Assembly (NCBI GenBank): GCA_037043015.1
Contig: CM073323.1
Coordinates: 4,774,001-4,838,000, forward strand
DNA: 64,000 nt
Source: Bryum argenteum
Taxonomy: Eukaryota; Streptophyta; Bryopsida; Bryales; Bryaceae
Direction: 5' to 3'
A program made the position numbers and the translations under genes. A model generated the notes under the pieces. That model saw only the letters and a program-made list of their open reading frames with translations. It searched no databases and was not told the DNA's origin. Shown one piece after another: positions 11,942-55,426 of the stretch (within the stretch, counting starts at the first letter, position 1; every line of letters starts with the position of its first letter).

Positions 11942-12838
11942 TCACTCATTAAGTGAATGTGAGCTTAATCTCCTCATCTCTATTGACTTTTCGTCCCACA
12001 AATTTTTTATGTCATTTAAATGTCCCCAACCAACAACTCCAACAACTTTTCCTTTGAGGTACCACAATGAGTTTGCCCACCTTTGATTCCTTCTAGCCAG
12101 ATAAAGTTGGTTTGTCAATTGAACATGTTCCGGATAAATACTTTTTACTTTCACTTTATCTTTGTCTAAAGCGTAATTTTTAGCATAAGTCTCCATATCT
12201 AAGTAAAGGCTTTTGATATACATGCATATGAAATCTCTAGATCCTATGTCCAATCTACAACTATGTCTCAAATTGGCTGCTTCAATATCCTCCGCGTTAT
12301 AATCATCCTCCAATACAATTCTAGCTCCCACTTTATGTCCTTCTTCAACCGCTACCTTCATCTCTTTTCCATATAATCCAAACACGTTAAAAATTGCCAT
12401 CAACTTTCCTTGAATATTGTCAAACAATAATTTATATATTATGCGATAGATATAAGTAAAATACAAACTTAGGTTATTTGTCTTGAAATACCAATCATGA
12501 TGAACTCTCCGAAATTCCACCATGACATAATTTGGCCTTATTGCTTTAATCATTTTTTTGACTATAGCTTTGGATTTTTGTGAGGTGTGTATGGTGCCTA
12601 TTAGATAAATCTCGGCTCCATTTGTTTCATTTTCTAAATGCAATATATTGCAAACATCCCAATTTGCTTGGACTAAATCATCTTTTTCTTGATTTATATT
12701 CATCCGCCAAGCTCTTCCCTCATTTTCCTCTAATTCTTGCAATTCTTGCAAAGTATATGCTTCAATTTTTGACTTATTTTTGAGATTCCTAATTTTGGAT
12801 AATATATTTTGAAAAAGTTTGCTAAAGAATGTCACCAT
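11942..12838 (-). CDS. TraB-domain protein (intronless, 298 aa)
   Basis: The TraB/PrgY family is found in bacteria, archaea and eukaryotes; plant and animal members are mostly organelle-associated proteins of poorly known biochemistry, some at mitochondria. Residues about 75-290 carry the family landmarks: the N-terminal IYLIGTIHTSQKS with its GTxH motif, an acidic-start strand PNYVMVEFRRVH, the central EMKVAVEEGHKVGARIVL, and the C-terminal ARRNQRWANSLW followed by VVGVVGWGHLNDIKNLW. No clear transit peptide or C-terminal membrane segment is evident. The first Met fits a complete domain with about 75 extra residues, several of them Lys/Glu-rich. It is one uninterrupted exon with very AT-rich codons, unlike the GC-rich multi-exon genes elsewhere here. 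It lies between two inverted copies of an old repeat. A retrocopy, a transposon-captured gene or a laterally acquired gene are all possible. Confidence 0.85.
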   Translation of the reverse strand: MVTFFSKLFQNILSKIRNLKNKSKIEAYTLQELQELEENEGRAWRMNINQEKDDLVQANWDVCNILHLENETNGAEIYLIGTIHTSQKSKAIVKKMIKAIRPNYVMVEFRRVHHDWYFKTNNLSLYFTYIYRIIYKLLFDNIQGKLMAIFNVFGLYGKEMKVAVEEGHKVGARIVLEDDYNAEDIEAANLRHSCRLDIGSRDFICMYIKSLYLDMETYAKNYALDKDKVKVKSIYPEHVQLTNQLYLARRNQRWANSLWYLKGKVVGVVGWGHLNDIKNLWDEKSIEMRRLSSHSLNE

Positions 12839-14045: not shown

Positions 14046-14692
14046 ATTTGCATCTTGCATCATAAGAGGCCAATTTTGAGAGTTTCTTGGTGTTTTGAGG
14101 CTACTCACCTTGGGGGGTTAAATAAAGTAAAAAAATATAGGTGAGATAAATTAGGACTGAACATAATTACATAATTCTAAGCTTTTCTTATTTTCTTTAT
14201 GGTCCATCATACCAAGTATTGTATAATGCCTCAAATGCCCCATAATAGATAATTCTACCACAAAAGTTAATCAAGAACATGTGATAGGTTGGAAAGTCGT
14301 TAATAATTTTTGCACTACTATTACGTTCTAAGGGGGATTGGTAAAAAATGGAGCGGTACTAATATTGGAGCTTTAGGCTTCTTCACTTACATGTGCATGA
14401 TAACATTGCTAAATGTAAGTTCACCTTCAAAAATTCATAGCAAATTGTAAAAAAGTCCAAAAAATTCACCCCCACTCTTCTTCCCCTTACATTCCCCATG
14501 CACAAAAAGTACTACAATATTTACTTTAGTACTATTAGAAATTCCGAAATTTGAGCCATTATTGAGCACTCTCCTCTATGTTTGCAATTGAAAAGAAATT
14601 TAAATTGGTGGTAAGCAACTTCACTAATTTTTGAACCCCGTTCAGTGCCAAGTGGAGCGTTCATTCCCCAGGCAAGTCCCCTTCTTAATTAA

Positions 14693-15053
14693 CCCTTAAA
14701 CGTCTAAGGTGACCCGAGGGGTCCTTTTCCAACAGAATCTTCTCTGTAGCTCTCAATGTACTCAACTTTTCACTTATATTTTGATGTCAAACTGGTCACC
14801 TTCTTCTGATGCATTCAAATAGTGAAATATTAGAATTCAAATCACAATTTGTATGAGTGATTTTTTGCTTTGAAAGGATTGTGGTAGGTAGGTTGGGGTT
14901 GTACAATACTTGTAGGAGGTTGCAAGCTCATCATTGATTGGATCATTCATGATGCCCAAGTTCAAAAAGTGCACTATTCATGATGCCCGAGTCCAAAAGA
15001 TGTTGTGATCCAATACTGGGCTGCCCAAATCCGTATAGCCTGACGTTTAAGGG
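14693..15053 (+). mobile_element. piggyBac-like MITE, copy A (361 bp)
   Basis: TTAA lies immediately outside both ends. The termini are inverted: CCCTTAAACGTCTAAGG at the left and CCCTTAAACGTCAGGC in reverse complement at the right. The interior (a block around CTGTAGCTCTCAATGTACTC, then TTTTGATGTCAAACTGGTCA) is shared with the copies at 48257-48640 (opposite orientation) and 50316-50677 (same orientation). TTAA target duplication plus ends beginning CCC are the hallmark of the piggyBac superfamily. There is no coding capacity, so the element is non-autonomous. Confidence 0.75.
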
Positions 15054-16299: not shown

Positions 16300-19089
16300 A
16301 AGGGGGAATAATAATACTTTCACGGAATGTACTTGTGGTGTAGATTTGACTTCAAATGTTTCGAAAAATCCAAATTAGGTTTTGAGGGATTTGGACAACC
16401 TACGTCCATGTGTGTTTGAAGCTTAGAGTTTTGAACTACGTGAGCCTTGTTAAATTAGTTCATATTGGAGGATGTATGATCAATCTCTCAAGTTTTAGGG
16501 CCTAGACTCTATGATCCTCCCTCAAACTCTCTTATTTTAACCCTAAAGGATCATTCAAGCGTGTTTTTGAACCTTGGAAACTAGTAACTGCAGTTTTTTT
16601 TTTTACCATTTTGTACAAATTGGTAACTTGCTCTTGTAAATTTTGGAGGTTGCCCTTGTAAAATTGGTAAAGCTTTTGACTTGACGAACCTTGGAACTCA
16701 AGTAGTGACTTGGTTATGAACTTATTGTCAATTTTTTTCCGGAAAAGGATAAATTTGAATTTACTCAAATTGGCCTTTTTGGGCTGAGAAACTAAAATTT
16801 GCATTAAAAAATATATCTTAATTTGGAATTTGACATTGCAAATTCTCTCTTACACACACCTTATAGTATAGGGAGCATCTAAACAAAATGTTAGACAAAA
16901 AATTACTATTAACTCCTTCATCTAAGTTGCCAAAATTGCAAAAACCACTTTTTACATCCTTCAGTTGGTCCCTTAGAGGTTAATAATGTACAGGAGAAAT
17001 TTTGAGTTTATGAAGTATCTTTCAAGGATAGATTTGTTTGTATGTGTAGACCAAACTTAAATCCAAAATTCCCACTATATGTGATATCATATTGTTCGAA
17101 GGTGAAATAATTATGTTTCTCTTGTTAACGAAAGGAGATGGAATGTTTTGTGGAGCACTAAAACCATAAAGTAGACATGACTTGATTTTCCGAGTATTTG
17201 TTCCTTGATATGTTAGAATGTTGTTTGCATGACTTTAGTCTAACAAGGTATATGAAACCTACAAAAATGCTTGGATTTTTGTTTTCAAGTAACTTGAAAC
17301 TCAAATACAAGGACTAGTTTTTGAGTTGCACAAGCTAATTGTTTTTAGGAAGATCTTGTTGAATATCTTGTTAGAAGAATATGAGAAAACACTACTAGTT
17401 GTAACAAGCTTTAGCTTCATTGTTTACAGGTTGAATCAATGCAAAGTTGATTGAAGTCAAAACAACTTATTTTAGGCTTCACTTGACTCTAAGGAGTTTT
17501 GACTACATAAACCAGAATTTGTTAGTACATTGAGCTCAAATAATTTTAACACATGAATATGGATAATGGCTTTTGCATGAGAGCTCCTACATGGGCAGAA
17601 TTTACATACACTTTATTGCGTACGTATTCAAGGCAAAATCTCATGAGAGAATTACCCTATCCGAGAAGGATAAGAGTGCTCACGAAGAAAATGATTGACA
17701 TGGTAATTGAGCAGAGAGTGCTCTACTTCTTGTTGATTCAAACAAGTGTAGACAAAACTGGCGACGATAGTGATCGAAGCATGGGATTACTATCGTAATC
17801 TTTCCTCTACATACCCCCCAACCATGGATAGAATTTCTTTCTTTGAGACATTCTCGAGACCATGGAGAAAATCTTCCCTTCCCTTAAGATCAAGTGGCAA
17901 GAATTAAGTACCTCCCATCACATGATGACTAGAGTGATGGACAATATTTGTTACTTTGATACTTATTCAAATGTTTTAGATTTTTGCCTTATACCTCTAA
18001 ACTTGAGAAAATTTGTACATTTCAATGCCTTTCTACTTTTGAAATATCCTTGGGTCAAGGATAGCTTACCCATTCATTATCGAGAGATTGATTACAAACG
18101 TAAAAACTAGGACAAATTTTACTAAATTAAGAGTGCAAATAGTGTCAAGAAGTGGGAATTTGGCGAGCTATGGCTAGAATCTCCTTGGTGGTGACCCCTT
18201 TCACAGGAACTTATCTCGACTTATCATAATAAGAGTCCTAGGACATACGTAGAGCCATTTCTTGCAATGAATAAAACGATAACGTCTAAATTACCTCCTC
18301 TTGATAGACCATTGTTTCCAACACCTCTCCTATATCCATGACTAATTTTTGTTAAATAAATTGTAGTTTACAGGGCAATGGTAAGCTTGGGGTATCACTT
18401 TTTGGACACACTAATTAGGTTATTTTTATTGAAAACCTCCAAAGTTTGTCTAATTTAGTCATTTTAATCAAGTAAAAAGACCCTAAAATAGAAAATAAAA
18501 TATCATGCACCTCACTGAAATCAAAGTATATATGCCTATAGATTTTCTTTTAGATTTTTTATTTTTTTTGGATCCATTCATAGATGAGGGAAAAAGTGTT
18601 GAATTTGGGGATTTGCAGGCATTATAGTGCACAATGAATTAATTTTTTAAAAATTAAATAAATTATTTTGTATTCTATACAAGAAGATGTAGGTCATATT
18701 CAAAAATTATATTTAAATAAAAATGGTTGATATTCCATTTGCTTGATTCTATGGATTTTAGGTTATTGGGACATGACTTACTTTTTCAACTAAAAAATCA
18801 AATAAAATTACTTCAAAATATTTTTTTTAATTTTTAATTTTTTTCTTGATACATTATAAGTATAGACAACTAAAACCACATCTAATGTAGTCTTATTGTA
18901 TTACAGTTTAAAAATGGATATGTTTGTCACACTAGCATAGAGTGCAATTGTTCATGGGACAACCTTTTTGGGTACCCCAACCAGAGCATCACCCTACAAA
19001 CATTCTATGAGAAAGTCAGGGTTTCTACTTTCCCGCACAACAAATTTAGTCATACCTTCGAAGAGAACGAAGGTTTCACTGCCTGATTT
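16300..19089. other. AT-rich intergenic DNA, no gene recognised
   Basis: Two neighbouring plus-strand frames of about 80 codons (17553-17798 and 17862-18110) have a protein-like feel (for example PTWAEFTYTLLRTYSRQ) but match nothing I recognise. They could be an old coding remnant. Confidence 0.4.
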
Positions 19090-19424
19090 TCCCACTACTA
19101 CACGTTACCAATATATAAACATATTTGTGTCCTATTAATGACGTCTTTAAAACGATTAAGAAAATCTCTTCGAGTAAAAAACGTTTTAGTTCTGTCACAT
19201 TTGCGTTTTAAGAATGAAACAAAAACGTCATACATTTGACTACAAAAACGTCATAAAATTTAACAAAAACATATTTATGACGTATTCGAAACGTTTTTCA
19301 TAGGCATTTGATACACATGTGCAACGAAATCATAAAATTAGCAAAACATTGTTTTGCAACTTTGCTACAACTTTGTAGCGTTTGTAAATGATTTAGTGCT
19401 AGAACATAATAAAGACAATTCTCC

Positions 19425-20400
19425 CAATTTAGGGCATGAAATTTTTAAAAAATGAAAAAATACGAGTTCTATAGAATATTCACTTCGTTCTTTCTCACAA
19501 CAGCTACAAAGTGCAAGAAATCTCTCTTTTGGGCTAAAGTGATCAGAATCATTTTAAAGCAAACCTCTTCTCCACCTGGTTTCTATGAAAGTTCATAATT
19601 TTGGATTGTAGTTCATTTTTTTGAATAAGCATAAAATTGGTTCAAAGTCATCAATTCCAATGAATATTATGTTGCAATATACTCTCCGGGTAAAAATTTT
19701 GAACGACTTAAAGATCTTTAGACAAGATTTAAATTTGAAAATACAGAGTAGAAAGGCTAGAGATACACTGGTAGTTCCTAAAATGAAGGAACTTAGGATA
19801 TAAAGCTTGGCAAATGATAAGATGATGAAATGTAAAGAACTTCCAGTTGAAGATGAATGAACTAGAGTTAGATAATTATAAGTGGATAATATGTACACTG
19901 AAGTTAGACCACTCTAGTTGATCTATAGATAAGATTCCACTAGAGTTGGACCACTCGAGATAGAGATTGTGAAAATAAAAAAAGTTGGGATACTCTAGAT
20001 GATCTACAAATCAAATCTATTTGTGGATATTGAAGATTAAAAGATTAAAGAAAGACTTTTAGTACCTTAGGAATTGTTAAGAGTAGATAACATGCGATCA
20101 CCAGAAGTCTAGAATAGATAACATTAGTCATCTAAGTAATTGTTAAGTATTTACTACAGTTTAACTAGGGTTAGGGGCGTTACCTACCACTGCTCAACTC
20201 TAGTTGTCCATACCTTATCCCTAGCCTAACCCTACTTATGTATGTTTTATCCCTACCATATAATGGAGGATTAGTATAGTGGCTACTCACTTCTTCTCTT
20301 TCATTTCTCTTTCTCTCAACATCTCTCAACAGGAATAAACAAGCCAAGGATCTCTTTTTCTTTTGCAAATTACTCTTGCCTTTGCTTTCTCTTGTCTTTG
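19425..20400 (+). repeat. 976-bp inverted repeat, left arm
   Basis: The reverse complement recurs at 21085-22060. The arms have exactly equal length with no net indel, and all segments I compared were identical, including translated stretches of 101, 62 and 60 residues. The frames inside are consequences of the duplication and match no known protein. Confidence 0.95.
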
Positions 20401-20757
20401 GTTTTCACTTCCTCTCAACATTTAGCTCTTCTCTCAAGTCGCCTTTCAAAAAGTTGCTGTATTATTCATGCTGATAGAGCTGTAATTAAAATATAATATA
20501 GTTTAGAGGTATTAACTACTCAATTTGTAATTGTCATTGCGAATACATAGTGCACCATGGCTAGTGATGTATCAATAGGTAGTAGAGATAGTTTGTCCAA
20601 TAAAAGGTTCACGTAGTAGCAATAGTGACCGTTCGCCTAGTAGCGAGGTTAGAAATTTGTTAAGAAGTGATAGCAGTTTGTCAGGAAGTGGTGATTCCAT
20701 TGGTAGTAATCCATCTGAAATTAATATGAGTGTGTATGAATTTGATCGTGTCGTGTC

Positions 20758-20865
20758 CTTTCGAAACTTAGAAAATATTAGAGAACCAAAATACTTTTGT
20801 TTTTGTGATAGGTGTAAAGGAGATCATAAGCACAAAATTAGCATCATTACTCATCATGTTACCGA
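20758..20865 (+). repeat. Inner inverted-repeat pair, left copy
   Basis: Pairs imperfectly with 20981-21080 (shared block ACTTAGAAAATATTAGAGAA; the left copy has a small insertion around GGAGATCATA). It lies in the loop between the 976-bp arms and is more diverged than they are. Confidence 0.85.
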
Positions 20866-20980
20866 CCTGTTCGGACCTATGGTAGGCAAACTTGCATTTA
20901 CATTGATTGCAATAACAAGGGTAAATTATTCCTATATTCTCAAACGATGTGGACCTCCTACCTTAGGTCCAAACAAGTCT

Positions 20981-21080
20981 GTAACATGACGGGTAATGAT
21001 GCTAATTTTGTGCTTTACACCTATCACAAAAACAAAATTATCTTAGTTCTCTAATATTTTCTAAGTTTTGAAAGGAGACG
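20981..21080 (-). repeat. Inner inverted-repeat pair, right copy
   Basis: Partner of 20758-20865. It directly adjoins the right 976-bp arm, whereas about 360 bp separate the left copy from the left arm, so the palindrome is asymmetric in its loop. Confidence 0.85.
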
Positions 21081-21084
21081 ACAA

Positions 21085-22060
21085 CAAAGACAAGAGAAAG
21101 CAAAGGCAAGAGTAATTTGCAAAAGAAAAAGAGATCCTTGGCTTGTTTATTCCTGTTGAGAGATGTTGAGAGAAAGAGAAATGAAAGAGAAGAAGTGAGT
21201 AGCCACTATACTAATCCTCCATTATATGGTAGGGATAAAACATACATAAGTAGGGTTAGGCTAGGGATAAGGTATGGACAACTAGAGTTGAGCAGTGGTA
21301 GGTAACGCCCCTAACCCTAGTTAAACTGTAGTAAATACTTAACAATTACTTAGATGACTAATGTTATCTATTCTAGACTTCTGGTGATCGCATGTTATCT
21401 ACTCTTAACAATTCCTAAGGTACTAAAAGTCTTTCTTTAATCTTTTAATCTTCAATATCCACAAATAGATTTGATTTGTAGATCATCTAGAGTATCCCAA
21501 CTTTTTTTATTTTCACAATCTCTATCTCGAGTGGTCCAACTCTAGTGGAATCTTATCTATAGATCAACTAGAGTGGTCTAACTTCAGTGTACATATTATC
21601 CACTTATAATTATCTAACTCTAGTTCATTCATCTTCAACTGGAAGTTCTTTACATTTCATCATCTTATCATTTGCCAAGCTTTATATCCTAAGTTCCTTC
21701 ATTTTAGGAACTACCAGTGTATCTCTAGCCTTTCTACTCTGTATTTTCAAATTTAAATCTTGTCTAAAGATCTTTAAGTCGTTCAAAATTTTTACCCGGA
21801 GAGTATATTGCAACATAATATTCATTGGAATTGATGACTTTGAACCAATTTTATGCTTATTCAAAAAAATGAACTACAATCCAAAATTATGAACTTTCAT
21901 AGAAACCAGGTGGAGAAGAGGTTTGCTTTAAAATGATTCTGATCACTTTAGCCCAAAAGAGAGATTTCTTGCACTTTGTAGCTGTTGTGAGAAAGAACGA
22001 AGTGAATATTCTATAGAACTCGTATTTTTTCATTTTTTAAAAATTTCATGCCCTAAATTG
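21085..22060 (-). repeat. 976-bp inverted repeat, right arm
   Basis: Exact-length reverse complement of 19425-20400. The outer boundary is the block CATGCCCTAAATTG. Confidence 0.95.
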
Positions 22061-22474
22061 AAAACCCGTGTTAAAGACGTCGCTTCCGTCTCACCAACGT
22101 TACAAACTCACTTAAAATCGTCATAAAAAATGTCATAATGTATGCTGCTTGTAATAGTATCCCTACCGAGACATGAAAAAGTTTCGGCAGAATGTAGCCA
22201 TAAGTAAAAGCCAAGTCACAAGTTCCACTTCCTTTACTTCCACAACCAGTTCTGTTCAAAATTAGAGCTTTTACACATACTACTGCCAGTTAGAACATCA
22301 TAGACAGTCTTGGGAAGAGATCGAGGCTCCTGTTAGTCACATTCTCAGTAAGTAGCTCTCGTTTGCAACGATCAGCTTTTCAAAAGCAGGATTGCTTTTG
22401 AATGTAGGTTCTGCTATTACGGTTTTTTTCAATTGATAATATATGATTGATTGGTTCAATTTAAGATAAATAAA

Positions 22475-22990
22475 ATGAAGCGAAAAGTAGCAGCTCTAGC
22501 GATACCCGTGGGGGCAAATCCAAGGAACAAAACGAACGTCTACCTGAACGTGTATGACATAGGAAACATAAACAAGTATCTGTACTGGGCCGGACTAGGC
22601 GTTCATCATTCCGGAATAGCCGCCCACGGTGTCGAATACGCATTCGGAGGCGCCGTGAGTGGGGTCTACTCCGTGACGCCGAAAAAGGATCGGGGTTTCA
22701 CATTCCGACGGCAGATTCTGATGGGGACGACCAGCTTGAATGCCGCCGAGTTTCGAAGCTTCATAGATGATTGTGCCGGAGAAGAGTATCGTCCGGAGAC
22801 GTATCATTTGCTCACGAACAACTGCAACCACTTTAGTAACCATGTGTGTCGGAGGCTCATCGGGAGGGGTGCTCCTCGATGGGTCAATCGATTGGCGAGG
22901 TATAGTTTCCTCTGCAAGTGCTTCTTGCCTCCTGATCTTCACGAGGCTCCCGTGTCAGAGAATGGACCCACAATTGCCAACAGCACATGA
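22475..22990 (+). CDS. PPPDE (deSI-like) thiol isopeptidase, 171 aa
   Basis: PPPDE proteins are papain-fold peptidases that remove SUMO or ubiquitin from substrates; plants have a family of them annotated deSI-like. The single exon contains the complete domain at residues about 20-145: VYLNVYDIGNINKYLYW at the start, the catalytic His in GVHHSGI (His45) followed by AHGVEYAFGG, the FxFRR element at 75-79, and the catalytic Cys in LLTNNCNHFSNHVC (Cys117). The C-terminal WVNRLARYSFLCKCFLPPDL matches the usual plant tail. The ATG at 22475 is the first Met in frame and gives a short basic leader. Codons are GC-richer than the surroundings. The right end of the CACTA-like element lies about 315 bp upstream, within the likely promoter region. 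Function is inferred from family. Confidence 0.92.
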   Translation: MKRKVAALAIPVGANPRNKTNVYLNVYDIGNINKYLYWAGLGVHHSGIAAHGVEYAFGGAVSGVYSVTPKKDRGFTFRRQILMGTTSLNAAEFRSFIDDCAGEEYRPETYHLLTNNCNHFSNHVCRRLIGRGAPRWVNRLARYSFLCKCFLPPDLHEAPVSENGPTIANST

Positions 22991-24459
22991 GCATCGATCT
23001 TGTCAATGTAGCAGAAGCTTATAACACTTAATCGATTTTATCACAATTGTGAAGAAGATAGTGATTGTCTGCAAGATCTGCCTTGTTTCTAATGAAGATT
23101 GAATGTTGACAGACATGATTTTTGGTGTTTCATGGCTGACTGCCGGTGGTTATATGCAATTGTTTCAGTATCTCTCTAAAAAATATTTTTGTGCAGAGGA
23201 TGCATTTAAAGAAACTGATGAATTTCAGGATCTGTGCTTTATTTGATATCATTTCTCCCAATAATGTCCCCAAGTTGTTATTGCTTCTATTGGATTCTTT
23301 GTGAGATTGAATTCAGGCTGTATTGGATACTAAAATGATGATGTTACAACAATTTAATAAACAAAATAAAAATGAGCGATGACAAAGCACCATTCAATTG
23401 TTTCATTATATTCATATATAGTCATGTTTTGTCAAGGTTGTTAAATGATGAGATTAATTATATTCTTATTTCAGAATAAAATTTGTTCGTGTACTTTAGT
23501 GTATGGAGGTTTATGATGATAATTCTTAATATAACTTTTTGTTTGTGAAGGTCAAATTGTACTAGAGCTAAAAGGACAAGGCTCTTTGGGTTCATATGTA
23601 TCTCCTTTGTGAATAAGAAGTGAGAAGGATTCATGAGTATGGGATTTCTATTTAAGAGAGAAATCATATTTTACACATTACTAACAGTGTTTTTCTTGAA
23701 TTAACCACTCTTTTATCTCTCATGTAGGATTCCTTACAAGAAAACTTGTAGAAATGTACTTTGATGTCGTATTGTCTCTTTGTCAAACTTTCTCTTGATT
23801 AAGATGTTATCATAGTTTGTCTCATTTTATTCACTTTTAATTTAGACAGTTAAATTGTGATAACAAAGTGTGATGTCATCCAACTCATTCATGGTAAGAA
23901 TGTAAGATGTGAAAGGACGAATGCATAGCGTCTTTTATCTAATGTATCACAAGCCATAGTTGACACAATGTGAGAAAATATTGAACTTCAAGACATATGC
24001 AAATTTACTAGCCATGATACAACTCTCAGCTAATGGACCCAAAACCTTACCATGTACTTTATAAAATCCCCAATTTTTGGGATTATTTTTTCAAAACTTT
24101 ACTCTAAGATGTGAGGTTACAAGCTCTGTGAAGGTCCAAATATTGTCTAAATTGGATAGATGTATATTGCAAAAGTTGTAGGCATTTTTATGCTAGTTTG
24201 GAAAGAAAGGGCAATTTCATTAAAGGAACCATGTTGATTTCAAAGAAATATTAAATTTGAGAAATTAATGAGAAGGGCTTGTCTTGCCCATTTCAATTTA
24301 TATTGCAATGAGGCCTTACCTCTTCTAATTTCCATAGTAATTGAATTATTTTATGTAACATTTTTCTTTGTCTCTTTCTCCTATTGATAAAGTATCTCCC
24401 CTTCCATCCATTATTGAGAATCATAATCACTAAAAAAATAAAAAATAAATTTCCGTAGA
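22991..24459. other. AT-rich intergenic DNA, no gene recognised
   Basis: Begins with the probable 3' region of the PPPDE gene (AATAAA-like signals near 23350-23370). No further gene seen. Confidence 0.5.
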
Positions 24460-24467
24460 CTAGAAGG

Positions 24468-24620
24468 CAGCGTTGTCTTATCACGCCAAATTCCTATTCA
24501 TTTGTCTAACACAATTTAGATGAGATGTACATTTGATACATTGATGACGTCTTAGATGTACATCTCATCTAAATTGTGTTAGACAAATGAATAGGAATTT
24601 TGTATGATAAGACAACCCTG
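24468..24620. mobile_element. hAT-type palindromic MITE (153 bp)
   Basis: The termini are CAGCGTTGTCTTATC and, in reverse complement, CAGGGTTGTCTTATC. The flanks CTAGAAGG (24460-24467) and CTAGAAGA (24621-24628) are an 8-bp target duplication with one mismatch. Nearly the whole element is a fold-back, with inner arms of about 45 bp that pair perfectly. Confidence 0.8.
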
Positions 24621-24628
24621 CTAGAAGA

Positions 24629-44655: not shown

Positions 44656-46798
44656 ATGGGTGTTCGTGCGAAACGGGAGGAGGAGCAATCCGGGTTGCTT
44701 CAATTTCCCGACGAGATTTTGGAGAATGTGATCGGCTTGCTTCGGAATGCGAGGGACAGGAACGCCGTTTCACTGGTGTGCAAGCGCTTTCACGCCATCG
44801 AGGGGACGTCACGGGGGAATGTGCTGGTGTCCAACTGCTACGCAATTCAGCCATGGAAGCTGGCGTCGCGGTTCCCGAACGCGACGTCTGTTACTATCAA
44901 GGGTAAGCCGAGAATCGTAGATTTCTCGCTCATCCCCCAAGCTGAGGTCTGGGGGGCGTACGCGAGGCCGTGGGTGAAAGTTCTGGCCAGGTTTTTCCAG
45001 CACATCCGTCACGTGAAGATGAAGCGTATGACTGTGTCGGACTCCGACATCGAGCGCTTGGTGGGCGCGTGCGGGACGAGCTTGCAGAGCCTCGAGCTCG
45101 AGAAGTGCTCGGGATTTTCCACGCGGGGGTTGGAGATGATCGCGCGCGCATGCCGGAACTTGGTGGTGCTGAACCTCTCGGAGTCCGACATTCGGAACGA
45201 AGGCTCGCCGTTCTGGCTTACCACGCTCTCTAACACGTCGCGCTCGCTGGAAGTGCTAAATTTGTCGTTGACGGAAGTGGAGGATGTTGAGAGTCATGTG
45301 CTGATGGATTTGGCCTCGCGTTGTCGCGACCTCCGGTTGAGCGGGGCAATGAAGATCGACCATGTGTTGGCTGTTGTCAAAGCGGCGAGCTCGTCAATGC
45401 AGCACTTGGGCATCGGGCTCTACTCCCAAAACGTCGAGAATCCTGACCTTATAGCCGAGGCTTTCCAGAGCTGCACCGGCTTGAGAGGACTATCCGCGCT
45501 CTGGGACCTAGACGATGGCTCCATGATGATGGTCATGCCCGTTGCTGCTCGCCTGACAAGCTTGGACCTCACCTATGCTCAGCTCTTGCAACCTGAGCTC
45601 ACGGACTTGCTTGCCTCATGCATCAACCTGGAGGATCTTCAGGTATGCACGCTTTCCTTCATCGCCATCATAAGTGCGGTACGATCATAGCAGACTGACA
45701 TAAAACAATTTGGGTGTGCAGTGCACTGATATTGTAGGAGACCGAGGGCTACGAGAAGTGGGCAAGCACTGTTCCAAATTGAAACGCCTCATCGTTCAAC
45801 AAGACGATCAAGGTTTCGTAACCCAGCACGGACTGACGGCCGTGGCGCAAGGCTGCTGCTTGTTAGAAAAAATCATCATCTATGCAGCAGATATGACGAA
45901 CAAAGCATTGGAGTCTCTGGCAGATAATTGCCCAAATCTGTCCGACATACGCATATGCCTTGTTCAGAAATATGACGATTCCCATCCAGTACGTATCTCG
46001 TACCCTTACGAGCTTCTGCACTGCACCACCTACCCCTTTCGCTCGTCTGACTCTTCTAATGTGCAGGTTATAGAGCTGGAAGGAAGCTCGACGTTGAACC
46101 TGGGAGTCAAAGCATTGTTGATGAAGTGTCGGAAAGCGCGAAGATTAGCTCTCTGCTTCAGCCGATTCGGCCTCACGAATGTGGTGATCACCGACGAGGG
46201 AATGAGCTACATTGGCCGATATGGTGGCAATCTGGACATCATCACGCTCACGAACTGTGGAAGCAGCGACGTAGGACTTGCCTGTCTAGCTACGGGGTGC
46301 GTGAAGCTCCGGAAACTCGAGCTTCGGCACTGCCCATTTGGAGATCTAAGTACGTCCAATGCCCATTCCCTTGCAGTCTCGCGATTCTCTTGTACTTTTT
46401 GAAGCTTGTTTGGTCCACGGTGGATTTGTGTTGAGAGGATGTGTATGTGTGTGTCAGGTATGGCGGCGTTGGCAATTGGAGTACCACGGTTGAAGTTCCT
46501 GTGGGTGCAAGCATGCCAAGTGGAGCTGGCAGGGGTGAGGATGCTGGCGCAGCGGCCGGAGTTCGTGGTGGAAGTCGTGAAAGAGAGCTGCACGTCTAGC
46601 GGGGTGATCACTCCATGGCAACTCATCGCGTACTCGTCGGCGGCACCACCGCGGACGGATCTTCCGGACAACATCGACCATGTGCACGACAAGTATTGCA
46701 CGCCGCTTTATAGCGAGTACTACCTGTGTCCTAGCACCGTTGAAAATGGGACCACGGAAGTCCCTGAGCCTGCTGCCGGTCATGTTGCGGTGGGGTAA
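44656..46798 (+). CDS. F-box/LRR protein of the TIR1/COI1 superfamily, gene A, 625 aa, 4 exons
   Basis: Proteins of this superfamily are the substrate receptors of SCF ubiquitin ligases and sense auxin (TIR1/AFB) or jasmonates (COI1) in the nucleus. Exons: 44656-45642, 45722-45988, 46067-46349, 46458-46798; all GT-AG and phase-consistent. The F-box is at residues 14-55 (LLQFPDEILENVIGLL then VSLVCKRFHAIEG). Leucine-rich repeats follow to about 570, and a C-terminal WQLIAYSS then RTDLPDNIDHVHD resembles the COI1 tail. By alignment to Arabidopsis COI1 from memory, pocket residues R85, Y386 and R409 are kept (Arg86, Tyr383, Arg406) but R348 and Y444 are replaced (Ile353, Cys448). Other stretches (SNCYAIQP, IRICL) are TIR1-like. 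It may belong to the XFB-type clade known from non-flowering plants rather than to TIR1 or COI1 proper. Gene B lies 6.2 kb downstream in the same orientation. Confidence 0.9.
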
Positions 46799-48256: not shown

Positions 48257-48640
48257 CCCTTAAACGCCCATGGGTCTGAAACGGGCAGCCCGAAATTGGA
48301 TCACAGCATCTTCTGGACTTGGGCATCATGAATAGTGCACTTTTTGAACTTGGGCATCATGAATAGTGCACTTTTTGAACTTGGGCATCATGAATAGACC
48401 AATCAATGATGAGCTTGCAACCTCCTACAAGGTTATGTACAACCCCAACCTACCTACCACAATCCTTTCAAAGCACAGAATCATTCATATAAATTGTGAT
48501 TTGAATTGTGAAATTTCACTTTTTGAATGCATCAGAAGAAGGTTGACATCAAAATATAAGTGAAAAGTTGAGTACAGTGAGAGCTACAGGGAAGATTCTG
48601 TTAGAATCAAACCCCTCGGGCTTGCTTGGGCGTTTAAGGG
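48257..48640 (-). mobile_element. piggyBac-like MITE, copy B (384 bp)
   Basis: TTAA flanks both ends (48253-48256 and 48641-48644). The termini are CCCTTAAACGCCCATGG and, in reverse complement, CCCTTAAACGCCCAAGC. The interior is the reverse complement of copies A and C and contains a small tandem duplication of a block around TTGGGCATCATGAATAG. Confidence 0.85.
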
Positions 48641-48644
48641 TTAA

Positions 48645-50311
48645 GGTGAACACGCCTACATTTGGACACTTGGTTTCTTGGCTTATGAACCTTCTTTCTA
48701 GCTTCAGAGATTACTACCTCACAGAAAGTGATAAAATAAAATCTAAAATTTTATGTATATCTCAAATAATTGATTCCTACATGTATAGTTCTCAAAATAC
48801 TTCACAAATGAAGATTACATAATACTTGAAGAAATGTAGCAATTTTTGAAGTAAACATAAAGTTTGGGTCTTTTTATTTTTGTAGTTTACCCCTATTTGT
48901 CCTTGGGGTATTCTTAGCCAAAAACTCATTTTTGAGAAAAGTGATATGGATGATATTTACATATAAAAAATAAAGATAAGCTATCGTGATCTCAATCGTT
49001 TACATGTAGACCCTAGTGGAGTCTCCACCACTGCCATCTTACGAGTTTGCTTCTTCAATTGCAACAATAAGGCCTTTGTAGAGTTTGATTCTGGATCAAA
49101 TAATTTGGGATATCTTTATGATTTTTCCCAATTTGAAGCGGATGTTTATTACTAGTTGCGAATGTGCTCCAGTTCACCTTTTGTTTCAAGATTAGCTTTG
49201 TATACACCATGCACACCAATGTGTCCGTGGGTTTCAAATAAAGCCGTTGTTATGAACTTCATGACATTCTTTAGGCCAAAGTCTCCCAATGTGATACATC
49301 TTCACATATTTATTGCAAGTCGTCAACCTCCAATACTCCTCATTTTCAAGCTCCCAAACATTTTGGGCTTTAATGGCTACATTCTCCAAGATCTCGTAAC
49401 GTAACTCATGTTTTGTTTTCGTTTTGGTGTCTCATGTAAAACCGACTCCATATTCGTGCTCTCTTTCTTTGTCGACATTTAGGTCTCATGTAAAACCACA
49501 TCCATGTCTGTATTGTTCTTCTCTTTTGACATCAAGGTATTGTGTAATACCACCTCCATGTTCATGTTATTCGTCTCAGTCGACATGAAGGACCTTGTTT
49601 GTAATACTCCAAGAATCCGGCAATTGTGCAAAAAAAAGATGAAGTAGCTACAACCAATGTGTAGAATGACCCTCTTGTCTTCACCAACTAGAATGCAACA
49701 TGTGTCGTAACAACTGCAACTTATTCGAATTGGGTTACCAAGAGGAAAGGAAGTAACGAGAAATGAGACTTGTTTGTCCTTTATAATGTAAAGGCCTTCC
49801 CACCGTAGTCGACCGGCGTGTCCTAGATCAGACGGCACTACCGGCCGTCGGATTGGACCGCCTTCAACCAATTGGGCAGCCTCCGACCAATCCAATTGAT
49901 CGGCCGCGATCGATCCGACGGTCATGGGCCGCCGCATTCGATCTGACAGTCACCGCGCCACTCCAATCGATGCGCCCGCGGGCCAGACGGCTCAAAATTA
50001 TCTCGGTCGGCCTTCACTAGATCAATTTTGAACGGCTACAATGGGAGCTTGTAGATAATCCAATAACCAAAAAAATTTACAATCGTCATAGTAACTACGA
50101 GTTATCCCCTCCGACGTTGAGTCCGTCGATCGTCGGCATGGATAGACGGACGGTCGTCCACCCAAAAAACCCCAAAAGACCTTCATTTTGACATCCCTGC
50201 ATAAGTCACATCCAACAAAATAAAGTACCACTGATTGTGAGTGATCCCCGGTAATAGCACTATTCACATAGATATCTGTGAAATCTAGAAAATGAATGGT
50301 CCGAGATGACC
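48645..50311. other. Intergenic DNA between the F-box genes
   Basis: No gene recognised. A GC-rich patch at about 49795-50030, rich in CGGTC and CGATC motifs, differs from its surroundings and may be a fragment of an unidentified repeat. Confidence 0.45.
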
Positions 50312-50315
50312 TTAA

Positions 50316-50677
50316 CCCTTAAACGCCCAAGCAAGCCCGAGGGGCATGATTCCAACAGAATCTTCCCTGTAGCTCTCACTGTACTCAACATTTCACTCAT
50401 ATTTTGATGTCAAACTGGTCACCTTCTTCTCATGCATTCAATAAGTGAAATTTCACAATTCAAATCACAATTTGTATGAATGATTTTGTGCTTTGAAAGG
50501 ATTGTGGTAGGTAGGTTGGGGTGGTACATAACCTTGTAGGAGGTTGCAAGCTCATCATTGATTGGCCTATTCATGATGCCCAAGTTCAAAAAGTGCACTA
50601 TTCATGATGCCCAAGTCCAAAAGATGTTGTGATCCAATTTTGGGCTGCCCGTTTTAGACCCCATGGGCGTTTAAGGG
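50316..50677 (+). mobile_element. piggyBac-like MITE, copy C (362 bp)
   Basis: TTAA flanks both ends (50312-50315 and 50678-50681). The termini are CCCTTAAACGCCCAAGC and, in reverse complement, CCCTTAAACGCCCATGG. Interior colinear with copy A and inverted relative to copy B. Confidence 0.85.
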
Positions 50678-53039: not shown

Positions 53040-55426
53040 ATGATGGGCGTGCAAAGACGCCAACGGACCGCCGAAGACGACTGCAGCTTGCTACGATTCC
53101 CGGATGAGATTCTGAAGCGGATTATTGACTGTTTGTCGCATCCGAAGGACCGAAATGCGGTCTCCCTTGTGTGCACACGGTTCTTGGCCATCGAAGGTCC
53201 TTCACGGGAGTCCGTGTTCATCTCCAATTGCTATGCTATACAGCCCAGGACGTTGAAGAGGCGCTTTCGGAACGCGCGCTCTATTACGATTAAGGGCAAG
53301 CCGCGCATGGTGGATTACTCGTTTATCCCGCACGCAGACGTGTGGGGCGCGTTCGCAAAGCCCTGGGTGGACCTTTTGGTTGAATCTTACAGACCACTCC
53401 GGCACCTCAAGATGAAGCGTATGAGAATCTCCGACGCGGACATTGAGTGCCTGGTCAGTGTGTGCGGGGACACGCTGGAGCGCGTGGAGTTCCCCAAGTG
53501 CTCGGGATTTAGCACCACAGGCTTGGACTCCATCGCGCGCACATGTCGGAACCTGGTGGTGCTCAACATCTGCGAGGCGGATGTGGTGAATGAGGGCGCG
53601 CCGCTCTGGTTGACCACTTTGGCCACCACGGCCTTGTCGCTGGAAGTGCTGGACGTGTCGTTGACGTTGCTGGCGAATTTGGAAGTGAAGGCGGTTGTGG
53701 AGTTGGCTAGCCGCTGCCACACTCTCAGGTTTTGTGAAGCCATGAAGATCGACAATCTGTTACCTCTACTGGACGCTGCTCAGAAGACCGTGCGCCACTT
53801 GGGCATTGGGTACCGAAACGCACCCATACCAGCTCTCAGAGAGAATTATGTGCTGTGTTGCTGTTTTATGCATTGAATCGCTACCAGATTAGGTCCCTGC
53901 TCTTCAGGCTAAGTGGTTGTTGAGAATGGTCTAGGCGGACATGTCGTGACGATGGTGGTTCAATGGGCATGGGCAGGTTGTACCCGGACTCGAACCTAGA
54001 AACCACCGACCAGATTGCGGAGGCATTTGGGAAGTGCAAGGAACTCGTATGTTTGCGACCGGTGTGGGATCTCGATGAGCGATCGCTGAGTATAGTGGTG
54101 CCCATCGCGCCTCGCATCAAGAGTTTAGACCTGACCTACTGCGTGCTTCCGCAAGAGCAGCTGGCGGACCTGCTTGGCCTTTGTGTGAACTTGGAGATTC
54201 TTCAGGTACTTACCAACTCCACTCCTCGGTACTGCAATCTACCCTCTCAGGGTATAGTCCGTAGTAAGAAAAAGCCAACCGTGCTGCACTGTCGACGAAT
54301 TATGACCATTGCATTGGTCTTATGTTTTGAGTGTGGCGATGGATGATGGTGATGATGATGAGCAGTACGGTGATACTTGGTGTGTGGTGTTGGTGGTTGT
54401 CAGTGCACTGATATCATAGGGGACAGAGGACTCCGGCAGGTGGGCGCCCATTGCAGAAACTTACGAAGGCTGCTCTGTGAAGCCTACGAAGCCGGATTCG
54501 TGACGCAACACGGGTTAATGGCCGTGGCGAAGCGGTGCTTGAAGCTGGAGAAGGTCACGTACTTCGCGTCCGACATGACCAACGAAGCTTTAGAAACCCT
54601 TGCTTACAATTGCCCCAATCTCTATGATGTCCGCATCTGCCTCAACTCGAAGCAGAACGATTCACACCCCGTGCGTCTCTCACCTCTCTGCTGATGTTTC
54701 CCCTGCGAAACAGTTGAACTGATAAGTGGCGTGCAGGTGATAGAGCTCGAAGCTGAAGACGCGACATTGAACTTGGGAGTGATGACCCTGCTAATGAAGT
54801 GCCCGCTATTACGAAGATTATCCTTGGGCTTCGACGCATGGCACCGAGACAGAGACGTGGAGAATGTGGTGGTCGATGACGAAGGGCTAGGTTACATAGG
54901 CCAGTACGGGAAGAGCTTGGAGATTCTAACATTAGATCACGTGAGCGGCACCACGGACGAGGGGCTGATGTACGTTGCGTTGGGTTGCCACAAGCTACGC
55001 AAGATCGAGCTCCGGTGCTGCCCGTTCGGCGATTTGAGCATGTCGGCGTTCGTAGAGGGAGCGCCCAGCTTGAAGCTGCTGTGGGCGCAAGGCTGCCTGG
55101 TGGAGCTGGAAGGCTTGAAGGAGCTGGCGAAGCGCCCTGACGCGGTGGTGGAGGTCGTGAAACAGAACGCAGACGATTTCAGCGATTGGCAGTTCATTGC
55201 CTACTCCTCTTCTTGCCGCCCGCAACCTCGCTTAGATCTCCCGGACAACATCGACTACGTTCACGATGCTTACGATGCACCACTCTTCAGCAACAAAGTT
55301 GCCGATGTGGAGGACGGCGATCAGTATCTCGACGAAGAACAGAATTTGGAGGAACAGAATTTTGAGTTTGTGCAGGATGATCCGCTGTCCTTGACGAGTG
55401 GTGACTGCACTTACACCGTCGAATAA
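53040..55426 (+). CDS. F-box/LRR protein of the TIR1/COI1 superfamily, gene B, 651 aa, 4 exons
   Basis: Diverged tandem paralog of gene A, with the same expected role as an SCF ubiquitin-ligase receptor. Exons: 53040-53809, 53977-54205, 54404-54670, 54737-55426; phases agree. The F-box starts at LLRFPDEILKRIIDCL, followed by NCYAIQPRTLKRRF and KGKPRMVDYSFIP. The C-terminus has WQFIAYSSSCRP and DLPDNIDYVHDAYD, then an acidic tail of about 30 residues absent from gene A. At the COI1 pocket positions R85 and R409 are kept, but R348 is Leu, Y386 is Phe (as in TIR1) and Y444 is Gly. Two adjacent ATGs occur at 53040 and 53043; either may start. An intron at HLGIG is absent from gene A, and gene A's last intron is absent here. 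Both copies look intact. Confidence 0.9.

Follow-up and report, generated by a model that had tools for sequence, protein, structure and literature searches.

A perfect 976-bp palindrome inside a CACTA-type transposon of the moss Bryum argenteum, with arm identity most likely due to recombination

Introduction

How do two inverted arms of 976 bp come to be identical at every position while a second inverted pair enclosed between them has diverged, and does such identity point to a function as RNA? We met this question in a window of 64,000 nucleotides from Bryum argenteum (GenBank assembly GCA_037043015.1, contig CM073323.1, positions 4,774,001 to 4,838,000; all coordinates below are those of the window). 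The arms of long inverted repeats in plant genomes have often diverged from each other, and in Physcomitrella the median arm identity reported is 79% over 132,656 inverted repeats (PMC2600652). The initial annotation of the window took the perfect palindrome for a candidate natural hairpin-RNA locus that might silence related CACTA elements in trans. Here, we analyze the palindrome, the transposon that carries it, and the repeats found in its arms and spacer, and we weigh the ways in which the arms could have become identical.

Results

The arms of the palindrome were delimited by exact comparison (Table 1). They are complementary at 976/976 positions and are separated by 684 nt, so the equal length and perfect identity announced in the initial annotation hold at exact coordinates. 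The divergence that it described around the arms is also real: exact identity goes no further than the arm ends, no identity exists between the two outer flanks, and the inner arms are diverged (Table 1). On the inner side, BLAST prolongs the arm alignment by 25 bp at low similarity (1,001 bp, 99.2%). A 976-bp inverted match is far above chance; the longest exact inverted match was 16 to 18 nt in simple shuffles of the window (n = 3) and 53 nt in the window minus the palindrome. In addition, megablast with 24-base words over 215,816 bases (the window and 16 fetched stretches) found no further inverted pair above 96% identity whose arms reached 100 bp.

Table 1. Features of the palindrome locus and of the element that contains it
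Feature	Positions	Strand	Basis or remark
3-bp target-site duplication (TSD) TCC, left of the CACTA element	19090..19092	.	Flank match
CACTA element, left end (CACTACTACACG...)	19093..19424	+	73-90% identity to 8 other genome places
Left arm of the perfect palindrome	19425..20400	+	Exact comparison with right arm
Solo copia-type LTR with TSD, left arm (copia origin probable)	20070..20336	+	TGTTA...CAACA; LTR proper 20075-20331
Left-only segment, 348 bp	20401..20748	+	3' part (20637-20748) collinear with inner arm in L030
Left inner arm, within degenerate coding-like sequence	20749..20886	+	
Right inner arm	20957..21083	-	11/127 mismatches to left inner arm, plus 11-bp gap
Right arm of the perfect palindrome	21085..22060	-	Exact comparison with left arm
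Mirror copy of the solo LTR with TSD (ATTCC on + strand), right arm	21149..21415	-	
CACTA element, right end (...CTTGTAATAGTA)	22061..22159	+	83-97% identity to 4 other places
3-bp TSD TCC, right of the CACTA element	22160..22162	.	Flank match

We then searched the genome (258,844,377 bases in 25 contigs, with the window on contig 3). Among the matches listed, the only full-length ones to the arm were the two arms themselves; the single-arm copies whose search had been suggested were not found there at full length, and the remaining matches listed were partial repeat pieces. Likewise, the outer 386 bp of the arm matched only the two arms in a search that skipped very common words. No direct repeat was seen by eye at the palindrome ends (19424/22061). 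We also considered the palindrome as a foldback or long-terminal-inverted-repeat transposon and rejected this candidate, as no TSD was seen and no other copy of the outer arm was found.

The palindrome sits inside one CACTA insertion (19093-22159) with TCC flanking each side. The left end starts with CACTACTACACG and contains, by eye, repeated ACGTCATAA/ATGACGT-type motifs. Its BLAST homology to the eight relatives stops at 19410 in seven of them and at 19256 in the eighth (L028); the alignment to the family fades by ~19423, after which the palindrome sequence takes over. Five relatives (L022 to L025 and L027) are mutually alike over ~800 bases or more, past the point where the window diverges, and the left termini of the relatives are CACTA-like, degenerate to varying degree. 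The right end, queried as 22061-22165, matched four other genome places. With a longer query, homology began at 22054-22058 in three of these; in L039, the remaining one and the same genomic place as L028, it began at 22082. Family homology therefore breaks off at the palindrome ends, with an offset of no more than a few bases on the right side and ~15 on the left side. The terminal inverted repeat consists of CACTACTACACG on the left and ...CTTGTAATAGTA on the right, the latter degenerated in its last base (TAGTG to TAGTA, at 22159); L028 and L040 terminate in ...TAGTAGTG.

L028 is a 244-bp copy in which the left end (to 19256) is fused directly to the right end (from 22082). Since it joins the two ends, both belong to one CACTA family, and internally deleted copies of this family exist. 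The CACTA assignment is based mainly on the family homology of both ends, since two 3-bp flanks (TCC/TCC) would match by chance about once in 64 cases. Non-autonomous CACTA (DTC) elements with a replaced or captured interior are a known class, and the sequence of the locus indicates a non-autonomous, internally replaced CACTA DNA transposon. Adjoining the element is a ~625-bp repeat (18368-18995) with copies 97-98% identical in L026 and L037 and a further copy at 67% in L036; it is probably a young transposable element.

Perfect palindromes are a recognised class of assembly or library artefact, and a false second arm of this origin had to be considered. However, the 684-bp spacer is asymmetric and contains the diverged inner pair, and the outer junctions run into the left and right CACTA ends with matching TSDs. 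A simple artefact of fold-back reads is hard to reconcile with the asymmetric spacer and with two different CACTA ends, and we regard a false arm as very improbable, the least probable of the explanations considered here.

The inner pair is nested within the outer pair in mirror order; a single base separates the outer and inner arms on the right, and 348 bp separate them on the left. The spacer contains a coding-like open frame (20657-20989) without a Pfam match at an E value of ≤0.1, and we rejected its assignment to a named transposase on this ground. Our search for relatives of this coding-like fragment found a single partial one, L030 on contig 8, with matches of 82% and 75% and, over 73 bp, of 90%. 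The left side of the spacer and L030 are collinear through 20637-20886; the 348-bp left-only segment therefore appears ancestral, at least toward its 3' end, and would have been lost from the right side. The nested order and the one-sided 348 bp, together with the collinearity of L030, fit a single palindrome with a later deletion. As both inner arms align to the same stretch of L030, the inner pair may be a fold-back of a once-single sequence or two relatives placed head to head. L030 is interrupted over ~620 bp; we considered this as an intron absent from the window, which would make the latter a processed copy, and rejected it, since by eye the interruption looks more like an insertion in L030.

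The two nested pairs differ sharply in divergence: 0/976 differences in the outer arms versus 11 in 127 aligned bases (seven being transitions), plus one 11-bp gap, in the inner arms. At the inner rate of 0.087 per site, the probability of zero differences in 976 bases is ~4e-39, which argues that the outer arms were recently homogenised or were formed later than the inner pair. The 95% upper bound on outer-arm divergence is 0.3%. If substitutions are assumed to accumulate at 1e-9 to 1.5e-8 per site per year, the homogenisation or duplication of the outer arms would fall within roughly 0.1-1.5 million years, and the inner pair would be roughly 3-46 million years old. A perfect 976-bp pair around a diverged inner pair provides a natural internal control for arm homogenisation, given a common origin of the two pairs, which we infer from their order and contiguity only. 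The inner pair, which is short (127 aligned bases), could also be an older, separate inverted repeat.

Each arm contains a 257-bp TG...CA sequence between GGAAT and GGAAT (a 5-bp TSD) and has no internal region, so that its identity as a solo LTR is well supported. The genome search with the arm gave at least 52 matches, two of them the arms (40/55 candidates scored), and the at least 50 matches elsewhere were pieces inside arm positions 384-908. Among the matches listed, these pieces reached at most 83% identity, with the exception of 34 bp (94%) and 37 bp (89%); many of the larger ones span arm positions ~651-907, which correspond to the LTR-like unit, and a second group spans positions 384-649. 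A primer-binding site is expected directly after an LTR, and CGTTATCAG or CGTTATTAG stands in that place in three of the six distinct copies seen in L003 to L008 (L004, L007, and one on contig 5). In the window copy the TSD follows at once, without either motif. On contig 5, two direct LTR copies lie ~4.3 kb apart, and one of the four frames between them gave a weak gag_pre-integrs match (E value, 8e-4; 19.6 bits, below the curated cutoff of 28.4). An origin of the arm LTR from a copia element is therefore probable only. We also noted three copies of the arm LTR within ~1 kb of contig 5 (L034:3805-4844), in + - + order, two of which form a ~500-bp palindrome at 87%. In the window, the LTR and an identical TSD occur in both arms, as would be explained by one insertion that was either copied across or predated the duplication.

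We then asked whether the arms could act on CACTA elements. The predicted fold of a transcript through the locus pairs all 976 arm positions with their mirror positions (minimum free energy, -1,984 kcal/mol), and the locus does lie inside a CACTA element, which upholds the structural part of the hairpin proposed initially. The proposed trans-silencing of related CACTA elements found no support. The arms had no BLAST match at an E value of ≤1e-5 in any of the eight CACTA loci (8/8), and the longest exact match was 12-13 nt. The CACTA left end, taken from beyond the arm as a positive control, had 17-32 consecutive bases in common with these eight loci. The CACTA sequence is found to either side of the arms, from 19093 to about 19423 and at about 22058-22159. 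We thus rejected the palindrome as a trans-silencer of CACTA elements, as its arms share nothing detectable with the eight loci. In Mu killer of maize, the arms derive from the target family: according to PMC3440606, it consists of part of mudrA duplicated in inverted orientation, along with two TIRA copies, all of it sequence of the target. No such derivation was detected for the arms studied here. The same paper doubts the long-hairpin model, reporting short antisense transcripts in silencing plants (PMC3440606). A repeat able to form a perfect hairpin does not by that fact alone mark a silencing locus; its arms need to be compared with the supposed targets.

The locus could still act on other sequences. 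A read-through transcript would yield a ~976-bp double-stranded RNA and then small interfering RNAs (siRNAs), and copia-type LTR relatives, instead of CACTA elements, could be the targets of the LTR and repeat part of the arms. The complete pairing of the arms in the predicted fold is consistent with this; among 26 partly overlapping off-locus stretches, exact matches exist for 20 of the 956 arm 21-mers, and 209 match when up to two mismatches are allowed. These matches start at arm positions 333-891, and five separate places off the locus (L007, L032, L034, L036, and L037) have 21-26 consecutive bases in common with the arm. In Physcomitrella, many 21-nt small-RNA loci are reported to fall on arms that belong to a single inverted repeat (PMC2600652). 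Since a transcript would fold and inverted repeats do make small RNAs in that moss, a hairpin-RNA role may be envisaged. Against it, the best off-locus identity is 83% for pieces over 40 bp among the matches listed, no Rfam match was obtained in 18000-24000 (which also led us to reject a known structured RNA), and, of the frames tested, the nearest on either side with a Pfam domain face away from the palindrome. These are a TraB-domain frame on the left (11942-12838, minus strand) and a PPPDE peptidase (Peptidase_C97) frame on the right (22451-22990, plus strand). Moreover, arm identity alone is no indicator of RNA function. We therefore consider a natural hairpin-RNA locus improbable; if siRNAs do arise, the only relatives found by sequence that they could meet are the LTR and other repeat pieces.

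Several neighboring features of the window deserve mention. The PPPDE frame starts about 290 bp to the right of the CACTA element, which may therefore occupy its promoter or 5' region. Two neighboring TIR1/AFB-type F-box genes (44656-46402 and 53040-55426) each have F-box_5 and Transp_inhibit domains in their first frame, and later downstream frames resemble, by eye, continuing exons; genes of this type point to a plant source. A frame at 56607-56915 matches the DDE_3 transposase domain. Other inverted repeats are a MITE-like, near-perfect palindrome of 155 bp (24467-24621; arms 90%, with a copy at 87% in L032) and an inverted pair of ~310 bp at 94% (48342-48647 and 50309-50622) with a third copy at 88% (14689-14998).

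Discussion

We propose that the locus is an old palindrome whose arms were later homogenised by arm-to-arm gene conversion inside a CACTA element with a replaced interior, and we give this reading a probability somewhat better than even (about 0.6). The CACTA interior would have been lost, with an inverted duplication of other repeat sequence in its place; the duplicated segment would have comprised the part with the solo copia-type LTR, followed by the degenerate coding-like fragment. The palindrome would first have arisen long ago as one inverted duplication, and its right side would then have lost 348 bp. Gene conversion between the arms, or replication template switching between them, may later have equalised the outer arms. 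Conversion would have been bounded inward by the 348-bp heterology and outward by the nonhomologous CACTA ends; the inner pair, which lies past the heterology, would have gone on diverging.

Gene conversion explains the mirror order of the pairs, the occurrence of the LTR and an identical TSD in each arm, and the sharp limits of identity, which is cut off inward by the heterology and outward by CACTA sequence. The genome searches found no third copy of the arm able to serve as an external donor. Conversion by itself does not account for the first formation step or for the mirrored outer ends, and with zero differences between the arms the direction and number of conversion events cannot be read from them. 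Template switching between the arms of inverted repeats, described for short repeats in yeast in the work cited here (PMC8604942), would by analogy be a related route to equal arms.

The main rival to gene conversion is a one-step repair duplication, in which the outer arms arose by a recent inverted duplication during double-strand-break repair within the CACTA element, added onto an older inner inverted repeat. Abortive gap repair, or staggered-break or template-switch copying of the left arm rightward, could have produced it. Zero divergence over 976 bp suits a single recent copying event, the CACTA interior is gone and a 244-bp deletion derivative with both ends exists (L028), and TTG at the right junction is common to the arm and the CACTA end. 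On the other hand, such a duplication needs coincident end points, at the left CACTA/arm boundary and at one base from the inner pair. We judge it unlikely, yet it is the strongest competitor of gene conversion.

Under homogenisation between blocks of nonhomology, arms of equal length are expected, and equal length is therefore no evidence of RNA function. The identity of the arms is most likely a product of recombination and not evidence of a selected hairpin RNA. Both ideas could be combined, in that the CACTA element would carry a conversion-maintained palindrome that traps LTR and repeat fragments and, if transcribed, directs siRNAs against LTR relatives and not against the CACTA family itself; we find this combination more doubtful still than a hairpin-RNA locus as such.

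How does the locus compare with known systems? Like Mu killer, it is an inverted duplication in a deleted DNA transposon with the potential for a long hairpin, but Mu killer, as described, duplicates the transposase gene and TIRA of its target (PMC3440606), and the arms studied here have no detectable sequence of the surrounding CACTA family. Arabidopsis IR71 and Physcomitrella Pp21SR are also long inverted repeats able to form stem-loop RNA. In the account of PMC2600652 these loci are defined by small-RNA reads, whereas our palindrome is known from its sequence alone. As in the mammalian X/Y and willow sex-chromosome palindromes, for which gene conversion is invoked in the reports cited (PMC8981503, PMC7023750), the arms may be much more alike than their age would suggest; unlike those palindromes, this one measures about 1 kb and lies inside a transposon. 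Finally, the locus resembles non-autonomous CACTA (DTC) elements in its CACTA terminus, 3-bp TSD, and lost interior, and in being accompanied elsewhere in the genome by family copies and by a 244-bp deletion derivative, but its interior is a 976-bp perfect palindrome of unrelated repeat sequence. The palindrome locus is thus an unusual combination of known parts.
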